Assembly: GCA_016933955.1 (NCBI GenBank) | Contig: JAFGTT010000001.1 | Span: 1-63,371, forward strand | Reading direction: 5' to 3' | Length of the DNA: 63,371 bases | Source of the DNA: Candidatus Zixiibacteriota bacterium | GTDB lineage: Bacteria; Zixibacteria; MSB-5A5; GN15; PGXB01 | Shown here: positions 15,825-28,342 of the stretch, in pieces | How positions within the stretch are numbered: position 1 is the first letter of the stretch | Layout: each line of letters starts with the position of its first letter | Notes under the pieces: generated by a model | The model's database searches: none | The model's input: only the letters and a program-made list of their open reading frames with translations | What the model was told of the DNA's origin: nothing | Program-made: the position numbers and the translations under genes

Positions 15825-18398
15825 TCAGTTTTCAGGACGAATAATAAAATTCAGATTATCCACCGAATCGCCACCTTCGATGGTTTTTATCTGGAAGGAC
15901 AGCGACGGCGGATCGGAGACATAGCCATATTTGGTCAATTGATCGGGATCGATGAATGCCTTGTACATGCCGGGAACCAGACCGAGGTGAAAATATTCAC
16001 CATCATTGAAGGTCGTGATATTATCTTCTTTTCCGGTGACTTCATTGATTACCATTATACGGATACCACCGACCCCGACAGTCTCCCCCTGCACGACTCT
16101 TTCCACCTTACCGGTAATTTCACCGGCCGTGACGATAGGGACATTGATGCTGGTGACGGTGTTGGGATTTATGGTTACCCGGAAATTTTCATGGGCCGGG
16201 CGAAGCATGGGATTGTCCAGGCTGTACTGGTCGATTTTCACGACATAATCATCGTAAGGTTTCAGACCATCATAGTAATATATATTTTCCTTGCCGCCGC
16301 GAACCGCCCGGGCTCCGCCGATACTGGCTTTCAATTCTGTCAGGAAGGGTTCGCCGATATCGTGAAGGCCGTTATAGTTTTCATCGAGAAACGGCCAGAC
16401 TACGGCCGTTCCCTGACCGACGCCGTTGCGCCGATCGAAGCGGAACGAGCCAGTTTCCTGATCAAAACGCACTGAGCCTCGCTGTGATTGGGTAACGATG
16501 GTCTGGGTCGGGGTGATATTGGCCCGGGAGGTCAGATTGGCGAAGCCGTTAAAGATATTGAAACTTATCATGACCATACCGTTTCCGGTCAGGGCGTTGT
16601 GCTCATAGCTGAGGGCCAGCTGGCCGGTTTTGAAAACCCGCTTCTGGAAATAGATACCGTATTTGGTGATTTGATTCGCGGTATGGCTGTAATCGATTTT
16701 AAACTGGGGGCGCAGCCATTTGACAAAGGCCGTCGAAAAAAACAACTGGCTGTTCAGATCTTTTTCCGACCGGGTCATATACTTCGAAATCTTGTAGTTG
16801 CCGAGATAATTAAGGTGCATTTTGTAAAGCGGCAATTTCAGCCCGTAATTCATATTAGTGATTTTATAGGTGTCGTAATTGTCAATGGAAAGCCGATAAC
16901 GGAGACCCAGGTAGCTTTTTCTGACCTTCAACGGGGACGATATCGACAGGGATATGTTGTTTTTCTGGTTAAGAGCATTCCAGAAATCGTTTTCCGAATA
17001 GTCAATATATCCGAAATTGATATTAACCAGTTCCGGATTGCTGTAATTAAGGCTGTACTCGGTTTTGTTGTCGGGTGAAAAAGAGCCGTTTAAAAGCAAA
17101 TTCCCCAGGAGCTGATAAGTCAAATCTCCCGCCATAATCATCTCTTCGCCCTCTTCGGGATTAAGCGGCACATCGGCGTTTACCCCCATTGTCAGGGAGG
17201 TGAAGAGGCCGTAATAAGTGTTGGCCTGGGCATAATTTTTATCCCCGTTCCTGGTCGTCATGGATCCGCCCGCCACTTCATATTCGAGACTTCCCTTGGG
17301 GATAAGATTGAAGGGAACCCGGATATACTGCTCCTCGGTCCGCACCTCGCCATCCGGGCCGTACATTTTTAGCAAGACCCGTGATGATCCGTAATAAACA
17401 TCAGTCAGGAAATGATAATCACCTTTCTGATCGGTATAGGCATAGTCGGTCAGGCGATTGTTAACATACAATTCGACTTCCCAGCCCTCGCCGGCATTAC
17501 CTGAAACATTGATTGTCTGGAAATACTTCCTCTGAATCTGGGGACGGTTGGTCAGCAGAACACCCTTAAGGTTGCGGTTCAACGAGCCGCTTGAGTTGAT
17601 TTCGCCCAGTTCCAGCTGAGTGAAGTAGCGGCTATTGTCGATAAAATAGTGCCAGCGGTAGAGCAACTGGCCGGGGTCGAAACCACTGATGCTGTTGACC
17701 GATCCATTCACCTCGATATCGCCGCCGAAAACCATGCCGCCCAATCCAAGGCTGAAATACTGCCCGGCGTTTTTGATGGGACTGACAGTCAATGACCAGT
17801 CGGCCACACCGCCCTTAAGCGTTTCCCGCTTATAGGGGATTTCATAAATGTCACGCGACAGGAGCCGCTCTTCTTTGAGTTTGTCATGGGCCGCCCGGCG
17901 TTTCATTCTCAGATAGGCAGGGAATTCACGGTCGAGAGGCAGATATACTTTCAATTCCGAAAAATTGAAATACATCATCAAATTGAAAATTTTCTGAAAC
18001 AGATCGATTTTAAGGAAGATTTCACGGTCCCCAAGATAAAAATCGCTATTTTCCAGGTCGGTCATTTTACCGAAACAGCGGATTTTCCGGTCGGATATAT
18101 TGATTTCAAGTTTATTATCTGATCTTAGAAATTCACCCTCAATTCGTCCCTTCTCGAAATTGGCATCCAGATTGATTTCCAGGAGGCCAAAAATTTCGAT
18201 AACCGGAATATAAATATTGGCGCCATCAAACTGCGCGACAATATCCTTATTGATAAGTTTGGGAACTTCAAACTTGACAATAATTTCCTCGAATTCCGCC
18301 GCCCGGATCGAGCCAGCCACGCCGCCCATTATCAGGCAGGCCAGCAGACCGGCAGTTATTCCAAGGGATATCGGTTTTCCTGAGCGCGCCCCTATCAT
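15825..18398 (-). CDS. Usher-like outer membrane assembly protein (chaperone-usher type)
   Basis: An 857-aa outer membrane protein, the length of PapC-type ushers. Signal peptide about 1-34. N-terminal region about 35-190 (EFEEIIVKFEVPKLINKD...) has the role expected of an usher N domain. A beta-barrel follows, with a plug-like Ig insertion marked by FQTINVSGNAGEGWEVELYV and YVNNRLTDYAYTDQKGDYHF, then RVPFNLIPKGSLEYEVAGG, which matches the usher pattern of vyvNG..i...dy.f...LIPkG..eYe.aaG. Ig/SdrD-like C-terminal segments (about 680-740 and 755-857) include FLDENYNGLHDIGEPF and GEITGKVERVVQGE. It lies 43 bp downstream of the PapD-like chaperone gene, which supports the call. It is divergent from proteobacterial ushers, so exact domain limits are uncertain. 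Confidence 0.75.
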   Translation of the reverse strand: MIGARSGKPISLGITAGLLACLIMGGVAGSIRAAEFEEIIVKFEVPKLINKDIVAQFDGANIYIPVIEIFGLLEINLDANFEKGRIEGEFLRSDNKLEINISDRKIRCFGKMTDLENSDFYLGDREIFLKIDLFQKIFNLMMYFNFSELKVYLPLDREFPAYLRMKRRAAHDKLKEERLLSRDIYEIPYKRETLKGGVADWSLTVSPIKNAGQYFSLGLGGMVFGGDIEVNGSVNSISGFDPGQLLYRWHYFIDNSRYFTQLELGEINSSGSLNRNLKGVLLTNRPQIQRKYFQTINVSGNAGEGWEVELYVNNRLTDYAYTDQKGDYHFLTDVYYGSSRVLLKMYGPDGEVRTEEQYIRVPFNLIPKGSLEYEVAGGSMTTRNGDKNYAQANTYYGLFTSLTMGVNADVPLNPEEGEEMIMAGDLTYQLLGNLLLNGSFSPDNKTEYSLNYSNPELVNINFGYIDYSENDFWNALNQKNNISLSISSPLKVRKSYLGLRYRLSIDNYDTYKITNMNYGLKLPLYKMHLNYLGNYKISKYMTRSEKDLNSQLFFSTAFVKWLRPQFKIDYSHTANQITKYGIYFQKRVFKTGQLALSYEHNALTGNGMVMISFNIFNGFANLTSRANITPTQTIVTQSQRGSVRFDQETGSFRFDRRNGVGQGTAVVWPFLDENYNGLHDIGEPFLTELKASIGGARAVRGGKENIYYYDGLKPYDDYVVKIDQYSLDNPMLRPAHENFRVTINPNTVTSINVPIVTAGEITGKVERVVQGETVGVGGIRIMVINEVTGKEDNITTFNDGEYFHLGLVPGMYKAFIDPDQLTKYGYVSDPPSLSFQIKTIEGGDSVDNLNFIIRPEN

Positions 18399-18441
18399 TT
18401 TCGTACCCGGCTAGTTATATCATATTCCTATCTTTTGGTCC

Positions 18442-19314
18442 TCAATGGACCGGTTCGGTTAAGGCGATACTGTTGCCCATAATCAATTCATCGGACGGGA
18501 TATCGGACCGGCCTTCGGTCCCGATGGCAACCTCGACTTTGAACGGTCTTTCGAAATTCCCCGGTTTGACCGGAAGATTAAGTCGACGCAGGAGACTATG
18601 GTACACGGCCAGGTCAATGGTGAGATCGGAAACCAATCGTCCCCGGTTGTCGATAAGTTTGCAATTGAGTAAGCCGACGTAAGAAACATTACCCCGATTG
18701 ACCATATCTAGGTAAATTTCGATGGTTGAATCCAGATCTCTGGCTTCGGTTCTAACCACTTCCAGTTTGGATATGAGATTACCGGTCCGATATTTCAGAT
18801 TGACGGCGGTTTGCATAATCATGTTCAGTTTAGTGGTGATCCGGTCGTCCTGACCGGCAACGGGGATTGAAGTTTGTCCTTCCTGGGATTTAACCATAAT
18901 CCGGGCCCAGTATTCGCCGTCGGCCAGATCCGCCGGCGGTTTGGCCAGGAATCTGACCACCTGGGTCGAATCGGGTTGAAGGATGAATTTCCGGGGATAG
19001 GCTTTAATCCATTCGGCCGCCGAGCGCGGGCCACTTACGGCTTCATCATCAATTCGCACCTTAACATTACCCAGACTGTCCGATTCCGGCAGGCCGAAAC
19101 TGAAATCGATAGATATTTCCTTTGGTTTATCGGTGGGGTTCTGGATGGTTAGTCTCCCGGTTTTCTTGGTATCCGAGAGAATCACTGATGTCGGGGCTAC
19201 CAGGACTCCGGCCGAGATGGTCGTGACCAGGACAGGAAAGAATACAATAAAAAAAGCAATCCCCCGCCATCCCGGGAAACCGGCAAAACGGGGGAGAAAT
19301 TTCTTGCGATCCAT
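18442..19314 (-). CDS. PapD-like periplasmic pilus chaperone
   Basis: A 290-aa exported protein (signal peptide with hydrophobic run AFFIVFFPVLVTTISAGV). The first Ig domain follows the PapD plan: VLVAPTSVILSDTKKTGRLTI, NPTDKPKEISIDF, then PRKFILQPDSTQVVRFLAKPPADLADGEYWARIMV. A second Ig domain covers about 165-285. Such chaperones hold pilin subunits until handed to the usher by donor-strand complementation. GAGG lies about 6 nt before the ATG. It sits between the DUF4402 pilin-like genes (upstream) and the usher (downstream). Two short inverted repeats in the 108-bp leader (near 19347 and 19372) may separate pilin and chaperone expression. Confidence 0.82.
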   Translation of the reverse strand: MDRKKFLPRFAGFPGWRGIAFFIVFFPVLVTTISAGVLVAPTSVILSDTKKTGRLTIQNPTDKPKEISIDFSFGLPESDSLGNVKVRIDDEAVSGPRSAAEWIKAYPRKFILQPDSTQVVRFLAKPPADLADGEYWARIMVKSQEGQTSIPVAGQDDRITTKLNMIMQTAVNLKYRTGNLISKLEVVRTEARDLDSTIEIYLDMVNRGNVSYVGLLNCKLIDNRGRLVSDLTIDLAVYHSLLRRLNLPVKPGNFERPFKVEVAIGTEGRSDIPSDELIMGNSIALTEPVH

Positions 19315-19422
19315 GTTAACCTCATCCTATGCGATTCCAGAGCTCCCATTCATGGAGCCCGTTACTATTTTCCTCCCAACAAGGAGGCCTTAAATCTCCA
19401 AAAAGTCAATTTCATTCTTTCG

Positions 19423-19980
19423 TCAGTTACCGGTATAAGCCACCGTTAAAATAATATCAGCCTCGTAGGCATCGGCCCGCTGATCGACAGTCGGATAAAC
19501 CGTGCCACCCATAAAGATCTGAAGGATATTATCGGTGGCGCCCAGATTATTGTCGGACAGGTTGTGCGGATCCTGATCGACAATGGCGCCCAGACCGTGA
19601 GCCGCCGGAGTCCCGGCCGCGGTGGTATCGAGATCAGCGTCGGTACTGCTGAAAGCGATCACCAGACGATCGGTATTGGTCGAATTCCAGAGGTAATCCG
19701 GCAGCTGGAGATGCATCGAGATTTCTTTGCCTCCGGCACCGGTAATCTGGAAAACGCCGGCCTCGGCAATAACGGTTTTATCCGCAGTTTTCGGAACCCC
19801 CTGAAGAACATCTCCAAAGGCCAGATCATGAGTGGCGGTTACAACCAGAACCGCCAGAACGTTGGCCGTGGCATTTCCGGTGGCGACATCCTGCGCCAGT
19901 GATGATCCGATAAAGACAAGAACCATCAATAATGTGAGTATTACTCCTGACGCTATTCGTATGTGTCTTACGTAGCGCAT
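19423..19980 (-). CDS. DUF4402 pilin-like protein A
   Basis: The start at ATG 19980 (one codon inside a TTG-initiated reading) has AAGGGAG 7 nt upstream. The 185-aa product has a signal peptide ending near SSLAQ, then the DUF4402 pattern: an alternating hydrophobic segment ATANVLAVLVV, LAFGDVLQGV, GVFQITGAGGKEISMHLQLP, NILQIFMGGT and the C-terminal LTVAYTGN. DUF4402 proteins are small Ig-like, pilin-like proteins. It lies 18 bp downstream of its close paralogue B and directly upstream of the chaperone gene, so a role as an assembled fibre subunit is inferred. Confidence 0.85.
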   Translation of the reverse strand: MRYVRHIRIASGVILTLLMVLVFIGSSLAQDVATGNATANVLAVLVVTATHDLAFGDVLQGVPKTADKTVIAEAGVFQITGAGGKEISMHLQLPDYLWNSTNTDRLVIAFSSTDADLDTTAAGTPAAHGLGAIVDQDPHNLSDNNLGATDNILQIFMGGTVYPTVDQRADAYEADIILTVAYTGN

Positions 19981-19998
19981 CAAATCACTCCCTTGATA

Positions 19999-20559
19999 TT
20001 AGTTGCCGGTGTAAGCCACTGTCAGGACGATATCGGCGGCATAAGCGTCGGCCCGCTGATCGACAGTCGGGTAAACGGTGCCACCCATGAAAATCTGCAG
20101 AATATTGTCGGCTCCGCCCAGGGGCGTATCCGGCAGATTATGCGGGTCCTGGTCAACAACGGCACCGCCGCCATGGGCCGCCGGGGTACCGGCCGCGGTA
20201 GTGTCGAGATCAGCATCGGTGTTGCTGAAGGCGATCACCAGACGATCGGTATTGGTCGAGTTCCAGAGGTAATCCGGCAACTGGAGGTACATCGAGATTT
20301 CCTTGGTACCTTCACCGGTTATCTGGAAAACGCCGGCATTGGCAATGACGGTTTTATCCGCGATTGCCGGGACACCCTGAAGAACATCGCCAAAGGCAAG
20401 GTCATGGGTTGCCGAAACGGCCAGAACGGCCAGAACATTAGCGGTGGCCTGACCGACGGCCACATCTTGAGCATTGGCTGTGACGGGGCCGAAAATCGCA
20501 AACAGCGCGATTAGTGCAATAAGCCCTGATAACTGTTTCATCCTTGAATTGAGATGCAT
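19999..20559 (-). CDS. DUF4402 pilin-like protein B
   Basis: A 186-aa exported protein; AGGAG lies about 7 nt before the ATG at 20559. The mature sequence differs from protein A at only about 18 of 147 positions by eye, including identical blocks PDYLWNSTNTDRLVIAF and TVYPTVDQRADAY, whereas the signal peptides are unrelated. It ends LTVAYTGN like its three paralogues. The pair looks like a recent tandem duplication. It probably heads a two-gene transcript with A. Confidence 0.85.
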   Translation of the reverse strand: MHLNSRMKQLSGLIALIALFAIFGPVTANAQDVAVGQATANVLAVLAVSATHDLAFGDVLQGVPAIADKTVIANAGVFQITGEGTKEISMYLQLPDYLWNSTNTDRLVIAFSNTDADLDTTAAGTPAAHGGGAVVDQDPHNLPDTPLGGADNILQIFMGGTVYPTVDQRADAYAADIVLTVAYTGN

Positions 20560-20893
20560 AGCCTTCTCCTTTTATGAGCTAAACATTTTGTTGTCTCAGT
20601 CCGCTACTATTGTTTCATATGGGAATAATCGACATCCGGCGACGTTTCTTAACGGTTTGAGACAAAAAAATAATGCAAAATGCCATAAATTTTGGCTGGC
20701 TATGGGAATGACCCAATAATCCCCAGCCTCGACTTATTTAGTGTTTTATTCTATTGGTATACAACAGATTATGTTATTACGGGAGAGAAATTAATTTTAT
20801 TCTGCGGAATCCGGTGTGGTGGCCGGGGGTGGCAGGATTTCTGCTGACAGGAAAAATTTCGTTAAGAAAATACGCCTAAAGCAAAAGACAGGC
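20560..20893. other. Intergenic stretch between DUF4402 genes B and C
   Basis: AT-rich, with no credible gene on either strand. It must carry the promoter for the B/A pair. No clear -35/-10 pair, riboswitch-like fold or strong terminator was recognised. Confidence 0.4.
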
Positions 20894-21367
20894 TCAATTA
20901 CCGGTATAGGCTACGGTCAGGACAATTGCCGCCGTGTAACTTCCTTTTTGCTGACGAAGTTTGGGGACAACCTGCCCTCCCAGCCAGATAACAAGGCCAT
21001 TGGAACCGAGGCGGTAGGTGATGGTATGCCAGGGATTGAGATCGTCATGACCAGGGCTGGTTTGATCCGGAGTGGCGCTGGAGTCCATGGAGCAATCATC
21101 ACTGCGAAAGATAAGCTGCATATTCCAGCCGCTGTAATTCATGTAAGTCGGTAATGTGAAATCTATGGAAATCTCGGAACCGGCTGTTCCGGTGACCAGA
21201 AATTCCGCGGCGGCTCCGGGAGTATATTTGGTTATTTGTTTGGGTATTCCCGGAAAGACATCGCCGAAGACAAGATAATTATTGATTGTGATAGTCTGCC
21301 CCGAGACGGGGATAACGAACATAGCCATGATAATAAAAAGTACGGGTATGATAATTGTTTTTCGCAT
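20894..21367 (-). CDS. DUF4402 pilin-like protein C (short form)
   Basis: A 157-aa exported protein; GAGG lies 6 nt before the ATG. Signal peptide about 1-23 (ending PVSGQ). It keeps the DUF4402 layout in shortened form: YLVFGDVFPGIPKQITKY, EFLVTGTAGSEISIDFTLP, LGSNGLVIWLGGQVVP, and the shared end LTVAYTGN. It is the most divergent of the four and lacks the long N-terminal alternating segment of A, B and D, so it may be a cap, tip or anchor subunit; this is inference. Confidence 0.82.
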   Translation of the reverse strand: MRKTIIIPVLFIIMAMFVIPVSGQTITINNYLVFGDVFPGIPKQITKYTPGAAAEFLVTGTAGSEISIDFTLPTYMNYSGWNMQLIFRSDDCSMDSSATPDQTSPGHDDLNPWHTITYRLGSNGLVIWLGGQVVPKLRQQKGSYTAAIVLTVAYTGN

Positions 21368-21463
21368 AATCGACCTCAGTAAAAGCTATCGAATATTTCA
21401 CGGCGAGTCAATATTGAAATTGGATGGGCTCGACGGACTGAGACCGTAACCTGAATCGATGTA

Positions 21464-21490
21464 AAAAGAAACCCCGGGGAACCCGGGGTT
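21464..21490 (-). terminator. Terminator after DUF4402 gene D
   Basis: Perfect stem AACCCCGGG (21470-21478) / CCCGGGGTT (21482-21490), 3-nt loop; TCTTTTTAC follows on the minus strand. It separates D from C transcriptionally, at least in part. Confidence 0.75.
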
Positions 21491-21532
21491 ATAGGACGAA
21501 ACGGAATATAATAATAAATCAAGGGAGGGATT

Positions 21533-22063
21533 TTAATTGCCCGTGTATGCCACCGTCAGGGTGACATCGGAAGCATAATCACCGCCGGTTTGAGAAATAG
21601 TCGGGCGAACCGTGCCTCCGATCCAAACCGTCATCTCTCCGGTGACTCCCAGATCGAGCGTTACCGGCCCATTGGGATTGATATCATCGACCGGACTGGT
21701 CTGTCCGCCTCCGGAGCCATCATCATACGAGGCGTCAGTATTGTTAAAATCGATAATCATGGTGGCCACCGAATCTTCGTGCATTAACCTATCCGGCAGG
21801 GCAAAATCCAGAGTGATTTCGGCACTGTTATCACCTCGGATCAGCCATTCGCCGGCGAAGCCGACATCGGCCTTATCGACCGTTTTATCTATTCCGAGTA
21901 AAACGGTTCCGAAGATGAGATCGTGTTCACCGGTAATTAAAATACCCGCAATGACGGTGGCGGTGGCCTGGATAGTCCCCGATTCCTGGGCCTGAAGATC
22001 GGCTGAAAGGTTCAGGATCAAGGTTATTGTAAAGACCGTTAAAAGCAGTTTTCTGGCAGACAT
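21533..22063 (-). CDS. DUF4402 pilin-like protein D
   Basis: The start at 22063 is preferred over an in-frame ATG at 22111: GGGGGAG lies 5 nt upstream and the 176-aa product then begins with a signal peptide (MSARKLLLTVFTITLILNLS, cleavage near LQAQ). Mature features: TIQATATVIAGILITGEHDLIFGTVLLGID, a central AEITLDFALPDRL, VTGEMTVWIGGTVRPT, and the C-terminal LTVAYTGN. First gene of the DUF4402/chaperone/usher cluster, followed by its own terminator, which would let it be made in excess as a major subunit. Confidence 0.85.
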   Translation of the reverse strand: MSARKLLLTVFTITLILNLSADLQAQESGTIQATATVIAGILITGEHDLIFGTVLLGIDKTVDKADVGFAGEWLIRGDNSAEITLDFALPDRLMHEDSVATMIIDFNNTDASYDDGSGGGQTSPVDDINPNGPVTLDLGVTGEMTVWIGGTVRPTISQTGGDYASDVTLTVAYTGN

Positions 22064-22111: not shown

Positions 22112-22481
22112 TCGTGATGCCGAATTTCTTGCGGTGGCGCATGTTGTTGGTAGATAAGCGATTATTGGTTTATTGGTTTGCGGACAGGCCTTTTGACACC
22201 GGTCGGTTGTGGGATTTGCCCCATAGTCTCAGCTATTAAATCGTTACGGGACAATTTCTTGGAAGAATCCAACTGGTTTCTAATGAAATCGCTAACGGGT
22301 TTGGATGGCCTTTTTCAATTTTTCACCCCGCTAACGGCTTACCGGTCAGATAATAGGCCGTCATCACCGGTAAAAATAATTTATCCGATGGCTAAAGTGG
22401 TATGGGGAATATCCGATACCAATACCGGAAGCCGCTGTTCAAATTTTTAACAGCAACTTTCGATTTTATGGAGTGAGTGAG
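22112..22481. other. Divergent intergenic region between DUF4402 gene D and the propeller gene
   Basis: No gene is seen. It must hold promoters for both directions. A short tandem ATTGGTTT pair occurs near 22164. I found no convincing promoter pair or regulatory fold. Confidence 0.35.
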
Positions 22482-23966
22482 ATGATATCTCGAAGTGCAT
22501 GGAGCAATTACATCTTTATGGCCTTAATTTGCCTGGTCGTTTCGACGGGCCATGCGCAGGATCTTGTCTGGCAACATCACCACGGCGGTGTCTATAATGA
22601 AAACGGGTATGCCGGACTGGAGACAGGCGAAGGCGGCTATTTAATCCTTGGAAACACCTATTCATATGGGGCGGGTGGATTCGATCTGTATCTGCTGAAA
22701 ATATCCGCGGCCGGTGATACCCTCTGGACGCGGACCATCGGGGGGATCGATACTGATTACGGTTATGATGTCGTTTCATCCGGCAACGACGGCTATGTTT
22801 TGGTCGGTTCCACCCGATCTTTTGGAAGCGGTAAAAAAGATGTCTATCTTGTTTGTACCGATTCGCTGGGTTCTATCGTTTGGTCGAAAACCTACGGGGG
22901 AAGTGAGGATGATGAGGGGCGATCGGTCCGGCGGACGGGGGACCACGGTTATATAATATGTGGAACCAGTAATTCCTGGGGAGCCGGTTATTCCGACATT
23001 TATCTGGTGAAAACCGACTCGCTGGGAAATCTGGTCTGGTCGGAGACATTCGGCGGGACCGGCGGCGAGACCGGATATGCCGTTCGCCAGACAATCGATG
23101 GGGGTTATATCGCGGTCGGAGCCACGGGATCGTTCGGGACCGGTTACAGCAGTGTTTATGCGGTTCGGGCAAACGCCTCGGGAGACTCCCTCTGGGCCAC
23201 TACTTATGGTGGCAGTGGGGCCGATCTGGCCTATTCGGTCGAGATTGCCGGTGACCAGGGGTATCTTATTATCGGCGCCACCTCATCGTCGGGTTCCGGG
23301 TATACCGATGGTTATCTGATTAAAACCGATGCGAACGGAGTAGTTTTATGGGAAAAAACGTACGGCGGAACCGGTGATGACAGACTCTATCATCTTTGCC
23401 GGGCTCTGGACGGCACCTACCTGTTAACCGGAACGACCGATTCATACGGCGCCGGGAAAATCGATATTTATCTGGTCAGGACTGATCCGGCGGGTGATAC
23501 TATCTGGACTGAGACTGTCGGAGGCTCCAATTCAGATTATGGGCGTATGGTTTTTCAGGATCAACTCAACGATTACCTGGTTATCGGGGAAAGCTACTCA
23601 TATTCGGCAGGGGGGACCGATGTATTTATCGTCAAAGTCGGAGGTGAGACTACGCCGGTGCTTGACGATGATCCGGGGAATTTGCCATCCGGATATAAAC
23701 TGGTCCAGAATTATCCCAATCCCTTCAACTCCACGACCTCGATCGAGTATGCCTTACCGCGCCATGCCGATATCTCACTGACCATTTTCAATCTTCTCGG
23801 CCAGGTAGTTAGGGAGTATCGCCTTGACCGGCAGAGAGCCGGAGTCCATATTATCCAATGGAATGGAACCGACCAGGATGGTTATGAAGTGGCTTCGGGA
23901 ATCTATTTTTATCGTCTGTCGGCAGGCGAATATACCGAAACCAGAAAGATGCTGATAATCAAATAA
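22482..23966 (+). CDS. Secreted repeat (propeller-like) protein with FlgD-like C-terminal domain
   Basis: The start at ATG 22482 has GGAG 8 nt upstream; a GTG at 22473 would place the ribosome binding site inside the gene. Signal peptide to about residue 26 (STGHAQ). Seven repeats of about 50 aa follow, each of the form GGYIxxGxTxSFGxGxxDxYLVKTDxxGxxxWxxTxGG, as in bacterial beta-propellers. A FlgD-like Ig domain closes it (about 410-494), with QNYPNPFNS and ASGIYFYRLSAGEYTETRKM. Likely a surface or secreted binding protein; ligand unknown. Divergent from the DUF4402 cluster. Confidence 0.82.
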   Translation: MISRSAWSNYIFMALICLVVSTGHAQDLVWQHHHGGVYNENGYAGLETGEGGYLILGNTYSYGAGGFDLYLLKISAAGDTLWTRTIGGIDTDYGYDVVSSGNDGYVLVGSTRSFGSGKKDVYLVCTDSLGSIVWSKTYGGSEDDEGRSVRRTGDHGYIICGTSNSWGAGYSDIYLVKTDSLGNLVWSETFGGTGGETGYAVRQTIDGGYIAVGATGSFGTGYSSVYAVRANASGDSLWATTYGGSGADLAYSVEIAGDQGYLIIGATSSSGSGYTDGYLIKTDANGVVLWEKTYGGTGDDRLYHLCRALDGTYLLTGTTDSYGAGKIDIYLVRTDPAGDTIWTETVGGSNSDYGRMVFQDQLNDYLVIGESYSYSAGGTDVFIVKVGGETTPVLDDDPGNLPSGYKLVQNYPNPFNSTTSIEYALPRHADISLTIFNLLGQVVREYRLDRQRAGVHIIQWNGTDQDGYEVASGIYFYRLSAGEYTETRKMLIIK

Positions 23967-24604: not shown

Positions 24605-27600
24605 CTATTTGAGTAAAATCATTTTTCTGGTTTCGCTATGCTTTCCAGTTTTAAGGCGATAAAGATATATCCCCGATCCCGCCTTGGTGCCGTCGTCTGC
24701 CGTACCATCCCAGGTAACACGATAATTCCCCGGGCCTTTTGTATCATCAACCAGGGTGGCCACTTTCCGGCCAATAATATTATAAACTTCAATTGAAACC
24801 GGCGATCGTTGTGGAAGTGAGTATTCAATCGTGGTTATCGGATTAAACGGATTGGGTACATTCTGCGAGAGTCGGCAAGTCTCAGGCAAGATATCGGCTT
24901 CATGATCCTCGACAGCGGTCGAGTGACAGAGTGAAGGGAGCCGCCCGATATTATTCATTCGCCGGTTGACACGCCAGAATGGGACCGGGAAGGAGCATTC
25001 GTCATATTCAGCCCCAGGATAATTGACGAAAATCTGATTGCTATCGGGTGTGGTGATAACCAGATCGACATGACCATCGCGGTTGATATCGCCCAGCGAT
25101 GGCGTGAACCGGTCACTGGTATAGACATCGCGGACGGTGATCAGTGGAAATCCGGGGATTTGAGCTCCGTCGGCATCCCAGGCATAAATCCTTTGGGCGT
25201 TATAGGTGTCAAACATATCGTTATTGGCGCAGGCCACCACATCGATGCGGGAATCGCCGTTTATATCTCCCAGAAGGAGCATATTCATAACACTCGGTTC
25301 CGGAGTGGTGGCGAACAGGCCGTTGTGGCTGTTGGGAATATACGAGGAGCCGTCGAGATTCCAGGCCAGAACATAGCTTGTGCTGATATCGAAAAAGGTC
25401 GAGAAATACTCAGCCTCGCCGTCATCGTCAATATCGCCGAAAATCGGCACGCTCGGCACGACATAGGTATCGACTCCCATTTCATGAGGCCAACCGGGAA
25501 GCAGATTGAGCCCGCCATCAAAGGCATATATCCAGTAGTTATAATCGAGATAATAGCCATACATAATCAGTTCCTGGACATCATCGTTGTCAATATCATA
25601 AGCCGAAAAACCGGCGATATTAAAATCGCTTCCGTTCATCTGGATCAAAAGACTGTCAATGGTTTGACCCGTGACGGCATCAATTTGACGAAGCAGGCAA
25701 TAGGAGAGATTACAGGCGTAAAATTCATCGAGTCCATCGTTGTCCAGATCAACCGAGAGGATATCATAAAAATAATTAAAGACATACAACAGGGAACCAT
25801 CCGGGCGGAAAATAAATGTTTTCGATAAATCCCCGTCATAAATATAGACAAAGATTTCATCGAGACCATCACTATCGATATCTTTCAGGAATACTTTGGG
25901 GAATTCGCTTTCGGTGCGGTAGTAATTCCCGACCGGAGGGGTAATTCCCAGATAGTTTTCAATTCGCTCGCCGCCCGATGGGAAAATATATACTTTGGGA
26001 GGATCATACCCCACCGCGACAATATCATCGATCCCATCACCATTGATTTCCCCAATGGCAGGCGGGATCATGTAATTATTGCGCGGGAAAAAGGGCAACC
26101 CGTCGGTTTTGGCCGTGCCATCGGGATTGAAAGCCATCATCCCGGCCGATGTTCCCAGGAGTATTTCATTCACCCCATCGTTGTCGTGGTCACAATAGGT
26201 GGTTATAATGGCCGGATAGCCATTGACGGGTGCTTTCCAGGCCTGGTCGGTGCCAAACATGGATTGGATATAAACCGAAATCGTATCGGCTTTAAGGAGG
26301 CTGTCGAAAGAATAAAGCGACAAACGTAAATCATAAGGACTCTCGGGAATTTCTTCGAGAAACCACCCTTCGATTGCTTCATCATATAGCGGCCACGATA
26401 CACTGGCGATTTCCTCCCAACCGCTGTCGGCCGAGGCCGGTTTGTACTCCAGAATTGAATATCCGAATTCCGGTGAGTAGGCTCTTCCCAAAACCTGAAT
26501 AAAATCGGAGATGGTCTCGCCGTCGATCGGTGACGTAATTTCGACCACGGTATCATTGGCAATATAGACAGAGGTATAATAAACATTATCATCGCCGCAT
26601 GAAAGGCGAAGAGTATAACGGCCGTTGAGTCCGTCTTGAGAGGTGTTCCAGACAGCCAGGTTTTCATCGGTTACGGGGGTATTGGAATTGATAATATTAT
26701 ACCAGCTTTCCGGGTCGGCGCCGGGGCCGTAATCAAGACTGTATTCCGTAAAATCGTTACCGTCGGCAAGGCCAATAATATCAACCATTCCGGAAACGAT
26801 TTCGTTCGGTCGGGGAGATTCTATCATCGCCCTGACTTCCGGAATGAGTGATAATGCTCCGTCCAGGTTCAACCGCCCGTATCCGCAGTAATTGTCGAAT
26901 CCCGGATAATTCCATCCTACTCCATAGGGATCGACAATATCGACCGCCGATTGCTCGAGAATCTGCCTTGTTTTTTCGGGGGTAAGGCCGGGGGAGGCCG
27001 CCTGCAGGACGGCCGCGGCTCCAACCCCATGGGGACAGGACATGCTGGTTCCCGAGGCCAGATAGTAAATAGTATCGATAATATGGACTTTACGTTCGTA
27101 TGGCCACTCCGAACCATACATATCGGTATTGCCGGCCCGCAGGGAAAGAATCATGTACCCCGGTGCAACCACGCTCAGATGATCACCATATGTCGAAAAC
27201 GAGGTGACCTGATCAGAATCGTTGGACGCCCCGATGGCGATCGTGGCGGCATAAGCGGCGGGGAAATTATAAGAGAAGGCGCCATCGTTTCCGGATGCGG
27301 CGCACAGGATGACACCTTTATCGTGGGCATAGTTGATAGCTTCTTCGATCAGGTCGCTTCGGAAATTGAGACCGAAACTCATATTGACCACTTTGGCGCC
27401 GTTATCGGCGGCATAAATGATGGCCCGGGCGATCCGGGTCACCAATGGCAGGGGATCAAACTTCAGAGCCATAATCCTGCAATTGGTCGCAATTCCGGCG
27501 ATCCCGACGGCGTTATCGGTTACCGCGGCGACAATCCCGGCGCAATGCGTGCCGTGCCCCTCGGTATCGGTCGGATCATTATCGCCCAGATCGAGGGCAT

Positions 27601-28342
27601 CGATACTCGAGGCAAAGTCCCAGCCATGCATATCATCGATATAACCATTATGGTCATCATCAAGACCGTTATCGGGGATTTCCCCGGGATTTACCCAGAT
27701 GTTGGCGGCCAGGTCGGGATGGACCATGTCTACTCCGGTATCGATTATGGCCACCACCACGGTGGTCTGATCAGGAATTGTTCCATAGACCTGACCGGCT
27801 CCGATATCGGCTCCCGGAATTCCGGCGGTTAATATTAACTCATCATTTGATGTTCCCCAGTTACTCAGAACATGATAATGTTCCTGGCCATTATTTTCGA
27901 GATTCCATTGAAACTGGTACAGAGGATCATCGGGAGTATCATAAAATTCTACCGTATAATCCGGTTCGGCATAAATAATCCCCGGTATGGTTTTAAATTC
28001 ATTTTTAAAAGCCTCGATATCGATGCCCGGGGCTGTTTCGAATATATAGACATTGCGAAATCTATTACCGGCTTTAATCGAGGCTGTTTTGGAAAGCAGG
28101 GATTTTAAATTCCGGACCTCATACTTATTATTGAGCCGATCAATATCCGATTGACCGGTTTTGGCCAGACCTTTTTCAGGCGAAATCATAAGCGGCACTC
28201 GGCTGTTATCGAATTTGACAATCAACCGAGTAGGCTGATAGGAATCATTCGTCACCAATCCGTCATAATAAATGCCCAGGGCATCCGCCGCAGGTAGAAA
28301 AAGGATAGCCGCCAATAATGAATAAAATATTATCTGTCTCAT
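24605..28342 (-). CDS. Secreted S8 (subtilisin-like) serine protease with FG-GAP repeats and FlgD-like C-terminal domain
   Basis: A 1245-aa exported protease. Signal peptide 1-22; I9-type propeptide about 38-133 ending AEPDYTVEFY. Catalytic triad visible: D201 (AIIDTGVDMVHPD), H263 (GHGTHCAG), S433 (ASGTSMSCPH), with oxyanion N352 (SGND). Ig-like segments follow the protease domain, then FG-GAP/VCBS repeats with Asp-rich calcium loops (DIDSDGLDEIF, DLDNDGLDEFY, DIDDDGEAEYF, DINGDSRIDV). It ends in a FlgD-like domain with QNVPNPFNP and ETRKMILLK. It is expected to be secreted and kept at the cell surface or released by a T9SS-like route. Confidence 0.93.
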   Translation of the reverse strand: MRQIIFYSLLAAILFLPAADALGIYYDGLVTNDSYQPTRLIVKFDNSRVPLMISPEKGLAKTGQSDIDRLNNKYEVRNLKSLLSKTASIKAGNRFRNVYIFETAPGIDIEAFKNEFKTIPGIIYAEPDYTVEFYDTPDDPLYQFQWNLENNGQEHYHVLSNWGTSNDELILTAGIPGADIGAGQVYGTIPDQTTVVVAIIDTGVDMVHPDLAANIWVNPGEIPDNGLDDDHNGYIDDMHGWDFASSIDALDLGDNDPTDTEGHGTHCAGIVAAVTDNAVGIAGIATNCRIMALKFDPLPLVTRIARAIIYAADNGAKVVNMSFGLNFRSDLIEEAINYAHDKGVILCAASGNDGAFSYNFPAAYAATIAIGASNDSDQVTSFSTYGDHLSVVAPGYMILSLRAGNTDMYGSEWPYERKVHIIDTIYYLASGTSMSCPHGVGAAAVLQAASPGLTPEKTRQILEQSAVDIVDPYGVGWNYPGFDNYCGYGRLNLDGALSLIPEVRAMIESPRPNEIVSGMVDIIGLADGNDFTEYSLDYGPGADPESWYNIINSNTPVTDENLAVWNTSQDGLNGRYTLRLSCGDDNVYYTSVYIANDTVVEITSPIDGETISDFIQVLGRAYSPEFGYSILEYKPASADSGWEEIASVSWPLYDEAIEGWFLEEIPESPYDLRLSLYSFDSLLKADTISVYIQSMFGTDQAWKAPVNGYPAIITTYCDHDNDGVNEILLGTSAGMMAFNPDGTAKTDGLPFFPRNNYMIPPAIGEINGDGIDDIVAVGYDPPKVYIFPSGGERIENYLGITPPVGNYYRTESEFPKVFLKDIDSDGLDEIFVYIYDGDLSKTFIFRPDGSLLYVFNYFYDILSVDLDNDGLDEFYACNLSYCLLRQIDAVTGQTIDSLLIQMNGSDFNIAGFSAYDIDNDDVQELIMYGYYLDYNYWIYAFDGGLNLLPGWPHEMGVDTYVVPSVPIFGDIDDDGEAEYFSTFFDISTSYVLAWNLDGSSYIPNSHNGLFATTPEPSVMNMLLLGDINGDSRIDVVACANNDMFDTYNAQRIYAWDADGAQIPGFPLITVRDVYTSDRFTPSLGDINRDGHVDLVITTPDSNQIFVNYPGAEYDECSFPVPFWRVNRRMNNIGRLPSLCHSTAVEDHEADILPETCRLSQNVPNPFNPITTIEYSLPQRSPVSIEVYNIIGRKVATLVDDTKGPGNYRVTWDGTADDGTKAGSGIYLYRLKTGKHSETRKMILLK

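Follow-up and report, generated by a model that had tools for sequence, protein, structure and literature searches.

A predicted chaperone-usher fibre locus with DUF4402-family subunits in Zixibacteria

Gene organization and conservation of the locus

The window analysed here, a stretch of 63,371 nucleotides (contig JAFGTT010000001.1) from Candidatus Zixiibacteriota bacterium, an organism known here from metagenome assemblies only, carries six genes between positions 15825 and 22063, all on the minus strand. Read in the direction of transcription, these are four subunit genes, s4 (21533-22063), s3 (20894-21367), s2 (19999-20559) and s1 (19423-19980), followed by the genes for a PapD-like periplasmic chaperone of 290 aa (18442-19314) and for an 857-aa protein (15825-18398) that, judging from its predicted fold, is an usher. 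This order confirms the first-pass annotation, which had described four DUF4402 pilin-like genes, a PapD-like chaperone and an 857-aa usher-like barrel on one strand. The s4 gene starts with an ATG at 22063, preceded by a Shine-Dalgarno-like GGGGGAG stretch. The s1 and s2 proteins are 78% identical to each other. Searching the host genome with our own subunit alignment recovered exactly these four subunits, and the genome holds exactly one such locus, with four subunits, one chaperone and one usher; a Pfam DUF4402 search of the same genome at an E-value of 0.001 gave no match. Two secreted proteins are encoded nearby. One (22473-23966) matches FlgD_ig, Por_Secre_tail and CHU_C, a type IX secretion-like tail; the other (24605-28342) is subtilase-like by eye and similar to the first at its C-terminal end.

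The 857-aa protein is encoded in 60 of the 98 relatives searched, representing 41 of 66 genera, mostly at 40-60% identity. Some 45 Zixibacterial loci keep the order s4, s3, s2/s1-type genes (one to three), chaperone and usher, within the limits of their contigs. Recurrence on this scale, at such levels of usher identity, argues that the arrangement in the window is not due to chance. Exceptions were found in locus L049, with an altered usher frame and no chaperone detected next to it; in L066, which has extra subunit genes downstream of the usher; and in L035 and L046, each with one subunit gene on the opposite strand. Three related genomes (L068-L070) each carry s3 in two tandem copies. Phylum names are those of the metagenome assembly titles, and some seem to be wrong: the loci of L037 ("Calditrichota"), L074 ("Ignavibacterium") and L080 ("Calditrichaeota") are typical of Zixibacteria.

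A strong hairpin resembling an intrinsic terminator (21470-21490, minus strand) lies between s4 and s3. Its stem is 9 bp long, 7 of the pairs being GC, and its tail is T-rich; the 76-nt stretch tested has a folding z-score of -2.3. In relatives (L034-L080), a hairpin of this type is found behind the first s2-type gene, as at L051:5352-5379. The window, whose s2/s1-type genes number only two, carries its hairpin after s4 instead. Overall, such structures were found in 24 of 53 gaps between subunit genes, against 0.2 expected from a simple two-base block shuffle, and in none of 37 subunit-chaperone gaps or 26 chaperone-usher gaps. Their presence among the subunit genes, and never ahead of the chaperone or usher gene, suggests that the output of subunits may exceed that of chaperone and usher.

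In most loci with a long gap between s4 and s3, among them L047 (3670-4125), L051 (3606-4046) and L076 (3615-4037), the gap holds an additional small secreted ORF of about 110-165 aa, which is absent from the window. Its product has a signal peptide, an extension-like start (SASIQATA.V), an unrelated-looking body and a subunit-like end (VTVIY..N). Possible identities are a degenerate subunit and an assembly terminator.

Components of the system and their relation to known classes

None of the window subunits reaches the Pfam cut-off for DUF4402 (PF14352; 25.2 bits). The best score is that of s3 (21.6 bits), followed by s4 (19.0 bits) and s2 (14.1 bits); s1 gives no match. With hhalign, however, s1, s2 and s4 align to a profile of proteobacterial DUF4402 subunits with P=97.6%, and s3 with P=93.8%; two Polaromonas members of that profile pass the Pfam cut-off when scanned. 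Membership of the window subunits in DUF4402 is thus clear only at the level of the family, by profile comparison. No Pfam match to spore coat U was obtained with the window subunits. Their profile shows a remote similarity to archaic pilins (P=96.6%).

The chaperone scores 21.3 bits with PapD_N, just under the cut-off of 23, and PapD_N matches at E<=0.1 were obtained for 21 of 27 aligned members of its family (best, 4.7e-6). It aligns to archaic chaperones with P=93.2%. Chaperone profiles from Zixibacterial and proteobacterial DUF4402 systems are nearest the archaic type, whereas the Bacteroidetes ones score slightly higher to the classical. Neither position of the basic anchor pair of classical chaperones (Arg8 and Lys112 in PapD) is basic in the window protein. 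In the archaic chaperone CsuC the subunit carboxylate is anchored by Arg89, Tyr196 and Arg174. The domain-2 Tyr of this anchor aligns with a conserved Tyr in the DUF4402 chaperones; an Arg in strand F1 aligns with the archaic anchor in Zixibacteria and is shifted in other DUF4402 chaperones.

An AlphaFold2 model of the 857-aa protein, built from 47 sequences (pLDDT 89.9, pTM 0.73), comprises a signal peptide, an N-terminal domain, a barrel with a plug and two C-terminal Ig-like domains. In a Foldseek search of the PDB, ranks 1 to 18 were all occupied by FimD or PapC (best E-value 3.5e-27), after which values dropped to 4e-9. VIA-align gave a Z of 19.7 over 608 residues at 9.9 A, and a Z of 16.0 over 354 residues at 3.7 A with the translocation (pore) domain of FimD (3ohn); these structural alignments leave out the N-terminal domain. 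The barrel (model residues 161-613; 16461-17819, minus strand), delimited from DSSP and the 3ohn alignment, has 24 or 25 strands by DSSP count. The plug (residues ~253-316; 17352-17543, minus strand) is the best-conserved part of the family alignment and, from the strand order in the model, is inserted between barrel strands 6 and 7. In known ushers, the plug likewise follows the sixth barrel strand. The protein is, as far as the model tells, an usher: a lack of structural resemblance to ushers had been named as grounds for abandoning the initial proposal, and the resemblance to FimD and PapC is instead extensive.

Current annotation misnames this usher family. The sole Pfam match of the window usher is a weak one to a carboxypeptidase-regulatory family, close to the C-terminus, and on annotated plasmids (see below) the homologues are mostly called "carboxypeptidase regulatory-like", otherwise "SdrD B-like" or hypothetical. 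The last usher domain (residues 724-824; 15828-16127) resembles the CnaB/SdrD B domains of Gram-positive surface proteins (Z ~11), and this likeness accounts for the misleading names. The Pfam usher family, PF00577, had no match in any scanned family member. Surveys of chaperone-usher systems based on PF00577 would therefore miss these loci: by Pfam, 0 of the 98 relatives score (the E. coli control being positive), against the 60 that encode the usher. PDB sequence searches with usher, chaperone and their profiles returned nothing relevant.

For comparison with known classes, small multi-sequence profiles were used because hhalign against single reference sequences gave weak results; the reference ushers were four classical, three alternative and six archaic. 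Zixibacterial, Bacteroidetes and proteobacterial ushers align mutually over ~800 columns with P=100 and E-values from 1e-60 to 1e-86, pairwise values that carry no database correction. Proteobacterial DUF4402 ushers match archaic ushers at 98.7% (E 4e-16), classical at 95.8% and alternative at 91.7%; the Zixibacterial ones match them at 94.0, 93.1 and 0.4%, respectively. Single values in this matrix should not be over-read because it is uneven (the alternative profile, at 0.4% with Zixibacterial ushers, reaches 75% with Bacteroidetes ones) and because a TonB-receptor control scored 50% against the proteobacterial profile via a shared carboxypeptidase-regulatory domain. In an unrooted maximum-likelihood tree of 39 ushers, which draws on 781 columns of low identity and includes six archaic sequences, the DUF4402 ushers form one clade (bootstrap 99), archaic and classical ushers group together (100) and EcpC-type ushers stand apart (100).

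On this sampling, the results suggest a system akin to the three known classes but belonging to none of them. The distinct class proposed in the first-pass annotation gains support from the lack of PF00577 matches in 98 genomes, the separate clade and the profile matrix. With the archaic (sigma) systems, such as Csu, the locus shares a single cluster of subunits, one PapD-type chaperone and an usher. It differs from them in having DUF4402 subunits in place of spore coat U subunits, in an usher outside both PF00577 and the archaic clade, and in a predicted one-domain tip, where the archaic loci read end with a second spore coat U gene of ~310 aa. An ordinary archaic system that diverged beyond the reach of Pfam, with no separate branch, would explain why chaperone and subunit profiles lie nearest the archaic type (P 93-98%) and why the anchor Tyr is shared. 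We consider this unlikely, as the sampled archaic ushers side with the classical ones in the tree, leaving the DUF4402 ushers outside, and are far closer to them (E 9e-43) than to any DUF4402 usher (E 4e-16 at best).

Classical systems (type 1 Fim, P pili) have the usher fold in common with the locus, and provide the best structural matches, but identity in the structural alignment is ~11% and both the PF00577 match and the classical chaperone anchor pair are missing here. The alternative (alpha) class is represented by the E. coli common pilus Ecp. The C-terminal usher region resembles EcpC (P=65%), but the DUF4402 ushers form a separate clade. No Pfam match to CooC_C/TcfC was found in the window or in Zixibacterial ushers; one weak CooC_C match occurs in the distant locus L092 (E 0.035).

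N-terminal extensions and predicted fibre assembly

Ahead of strand A, the s1, s2 and s4 subunits carry an extension of ~15 residues with alternating small hydrophobic residues (ATATV). These predicted donor strands, all encoded on the minus strand, are QDVATGNATANVLAV in s1 (19849-19893), QDVAVGQATANVLAV in s2 (20425-20469) and QESGTIQATATVIAG in s4 (21944-21988), the latter two identified from extension lengths and the subunit alignment. The s1 extension is kept in the other subunits of the s1/s2/s4 types. In the alignment, s3 begins at strand A and the extension block is missing as a unit. From predicted cleavage, placed by heuristic calls, to the FG motif, the median distance is 11 residues in 36 s3 orthologues, compared with 25 for the other 133 subunits. 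Five of these 133 have fewer than 24 residues, and one s3 has as many as 22. Subunits without extension also occur in Polaromonas and in L086, L089 and L092.

The subunits end directly after their last strand. In a model in which s1 and the chaperone were joined as a pseudo-fusion, intergenic stops being read as residues, chaperone domain 1 was unfolded (pLDDT ~30); the matches listed for this model against the PDB were generic Ig-like domains, with chaperone-usher proteins absent among them. The s1 body alone reached a pLDDT of ~80, with its first 16 residues disordered. Subunits with closed, complete Ig folds had been named beforehand as an observation that would count against the initial proposal; they were not seen, the modelled N-terminus being disordered and the chain ending at the last strand, and the open groove itself is a prediction. 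The pLDDT of the isolated body is what might be expected if a real usher exported complete monomeric DUF4402 proteins, or built some other surface layer, in either case without donor-strand exchange. We hold this to be very improbable: besides ending at the last strand and resembling archaic pilins by profile, the subunits keep in three of four types an extension that is disordered in the model and is missing as a unit in the fourth.

Most likely, the cluster is a fibre locus with all the chaperone-usher parts, from a fourth, unnamed branch that would assemble its fibres by donor-strand exchange with s3 at the tip. Counting against this reading are the Pfam scores of the window's subunits and chaperone, which stay under the cut-offs, and the lack of conservation of the two-residue carboxylate anchor of classical chaperones. 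Subunits would leave the cytoplasm by means of their signal peptides and fold as Ig-like domains ending at the last strand. Each open subunit would be lent a strand by the PapD-like chaperone in the periplasm, and the chaperone-subunit pair would dock on the usher. The N-terminal extension of each incoming subunit could then displace the chaperone strand from the preceding one, the fibre being extended through the pore. With s3 entering first, s1, s2 and s4 would polymerise behind it. A surface fibre made in this way might have a role in adhesion or biofilm formation. The scheme proposes a function for DUF4402, a family that went without mention in the open-access literature searched, a body that leaves most subscription papers and all bioRxiv preprints outside.

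The position of s3 is predicted from the absence of its extension: such a subunit can accept a strand and cannot donate one, and would therefore go first and cap the tip. The minor subunits AggB and AafB of AAF pili, which belong to a classical system, are single-domain caps that, like s3, have no N-terminal extension (PMC5029526). There is some chance, though a low one, that the fibre forms as proposed and that s3 is a regulator, a basal assembly stop or a bystander. Its single domain, in which a Pfam scan recognised no binding module, and the tandem s3 copies of L068-L070 would fit such a role. Against it, s3 still has in the alignment a signal peptide, the core of a subunit and its C-terminal strand, a subunit with no donor strand cannot join behind another, and the AAF caps provide a precedent. 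The lack of an extension in s3 makes subunit order in the fibre testable from sequence alone.

Spread across phyla

A pattern scan detected relatives in records from Saprospiraceae and Bacteroidales, Alpha- and Gammaproteobacteria, Bdellovibrionaceae, Latescibacterota and Fibrobacter, and tblastn detected them on plasmids of Polaromonas, Sphingopyxis, Novosphingobium and Pseudoalteromonas. A DUF4402 gene, a chaperone and an unrecognised usher occur together in Bacteroidetes, Alpha-, Beta- and Gammaproteobacteria and Bdellovibrio, and annotated DUF4402 genes adjoin the usher in three of the four plasmid regions read. These records set a lower bound on how far the family extends beyond Zixibacteria. 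The locus had originally been presented as belonging to a non-proteobacterial, FCB-type bacterium; this holds for the host, a member of Zixibacteria, but not for the class, which also resides on proteobacterial plasmids and contigs and extends beyond the FCB group.

On balance, it seems probable that DUF4402 systems constitute a fourth, ancient class that extends over the FCB group, Proteobacteria and Bdellovibrio and has as its hallmark a tip subunit of one domain, without extension. The class would have been overlooked because its usher escapes PF00577 and is annotated as carboxypeptidase-regulatory, so that an entire branch of bacterial pili seems to have gone unnoticed. A search of the open-access literature (most subscription papers and all bioRxiv preprints falling outside it) for chaperone-usher systems together with Zixibacteria, Bacteroidota or the carboxypeptidase-regulatory name returned nothing relevant. 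Archaic chaperone-usher systems are already known from Cyanobacteria and Deinococcus-Thermus (PMC4654587). Separately, a Sphingomonas daechungensis plasmid (L105:1793-7264) was found to carry pieces of a TcfC/CS1-type usher split over two annotated genes, with a chaperone adjoining; their alphaproteobacterial location contrasts with the description of the alternative class as limited to beta- and gammaproteobacteria.
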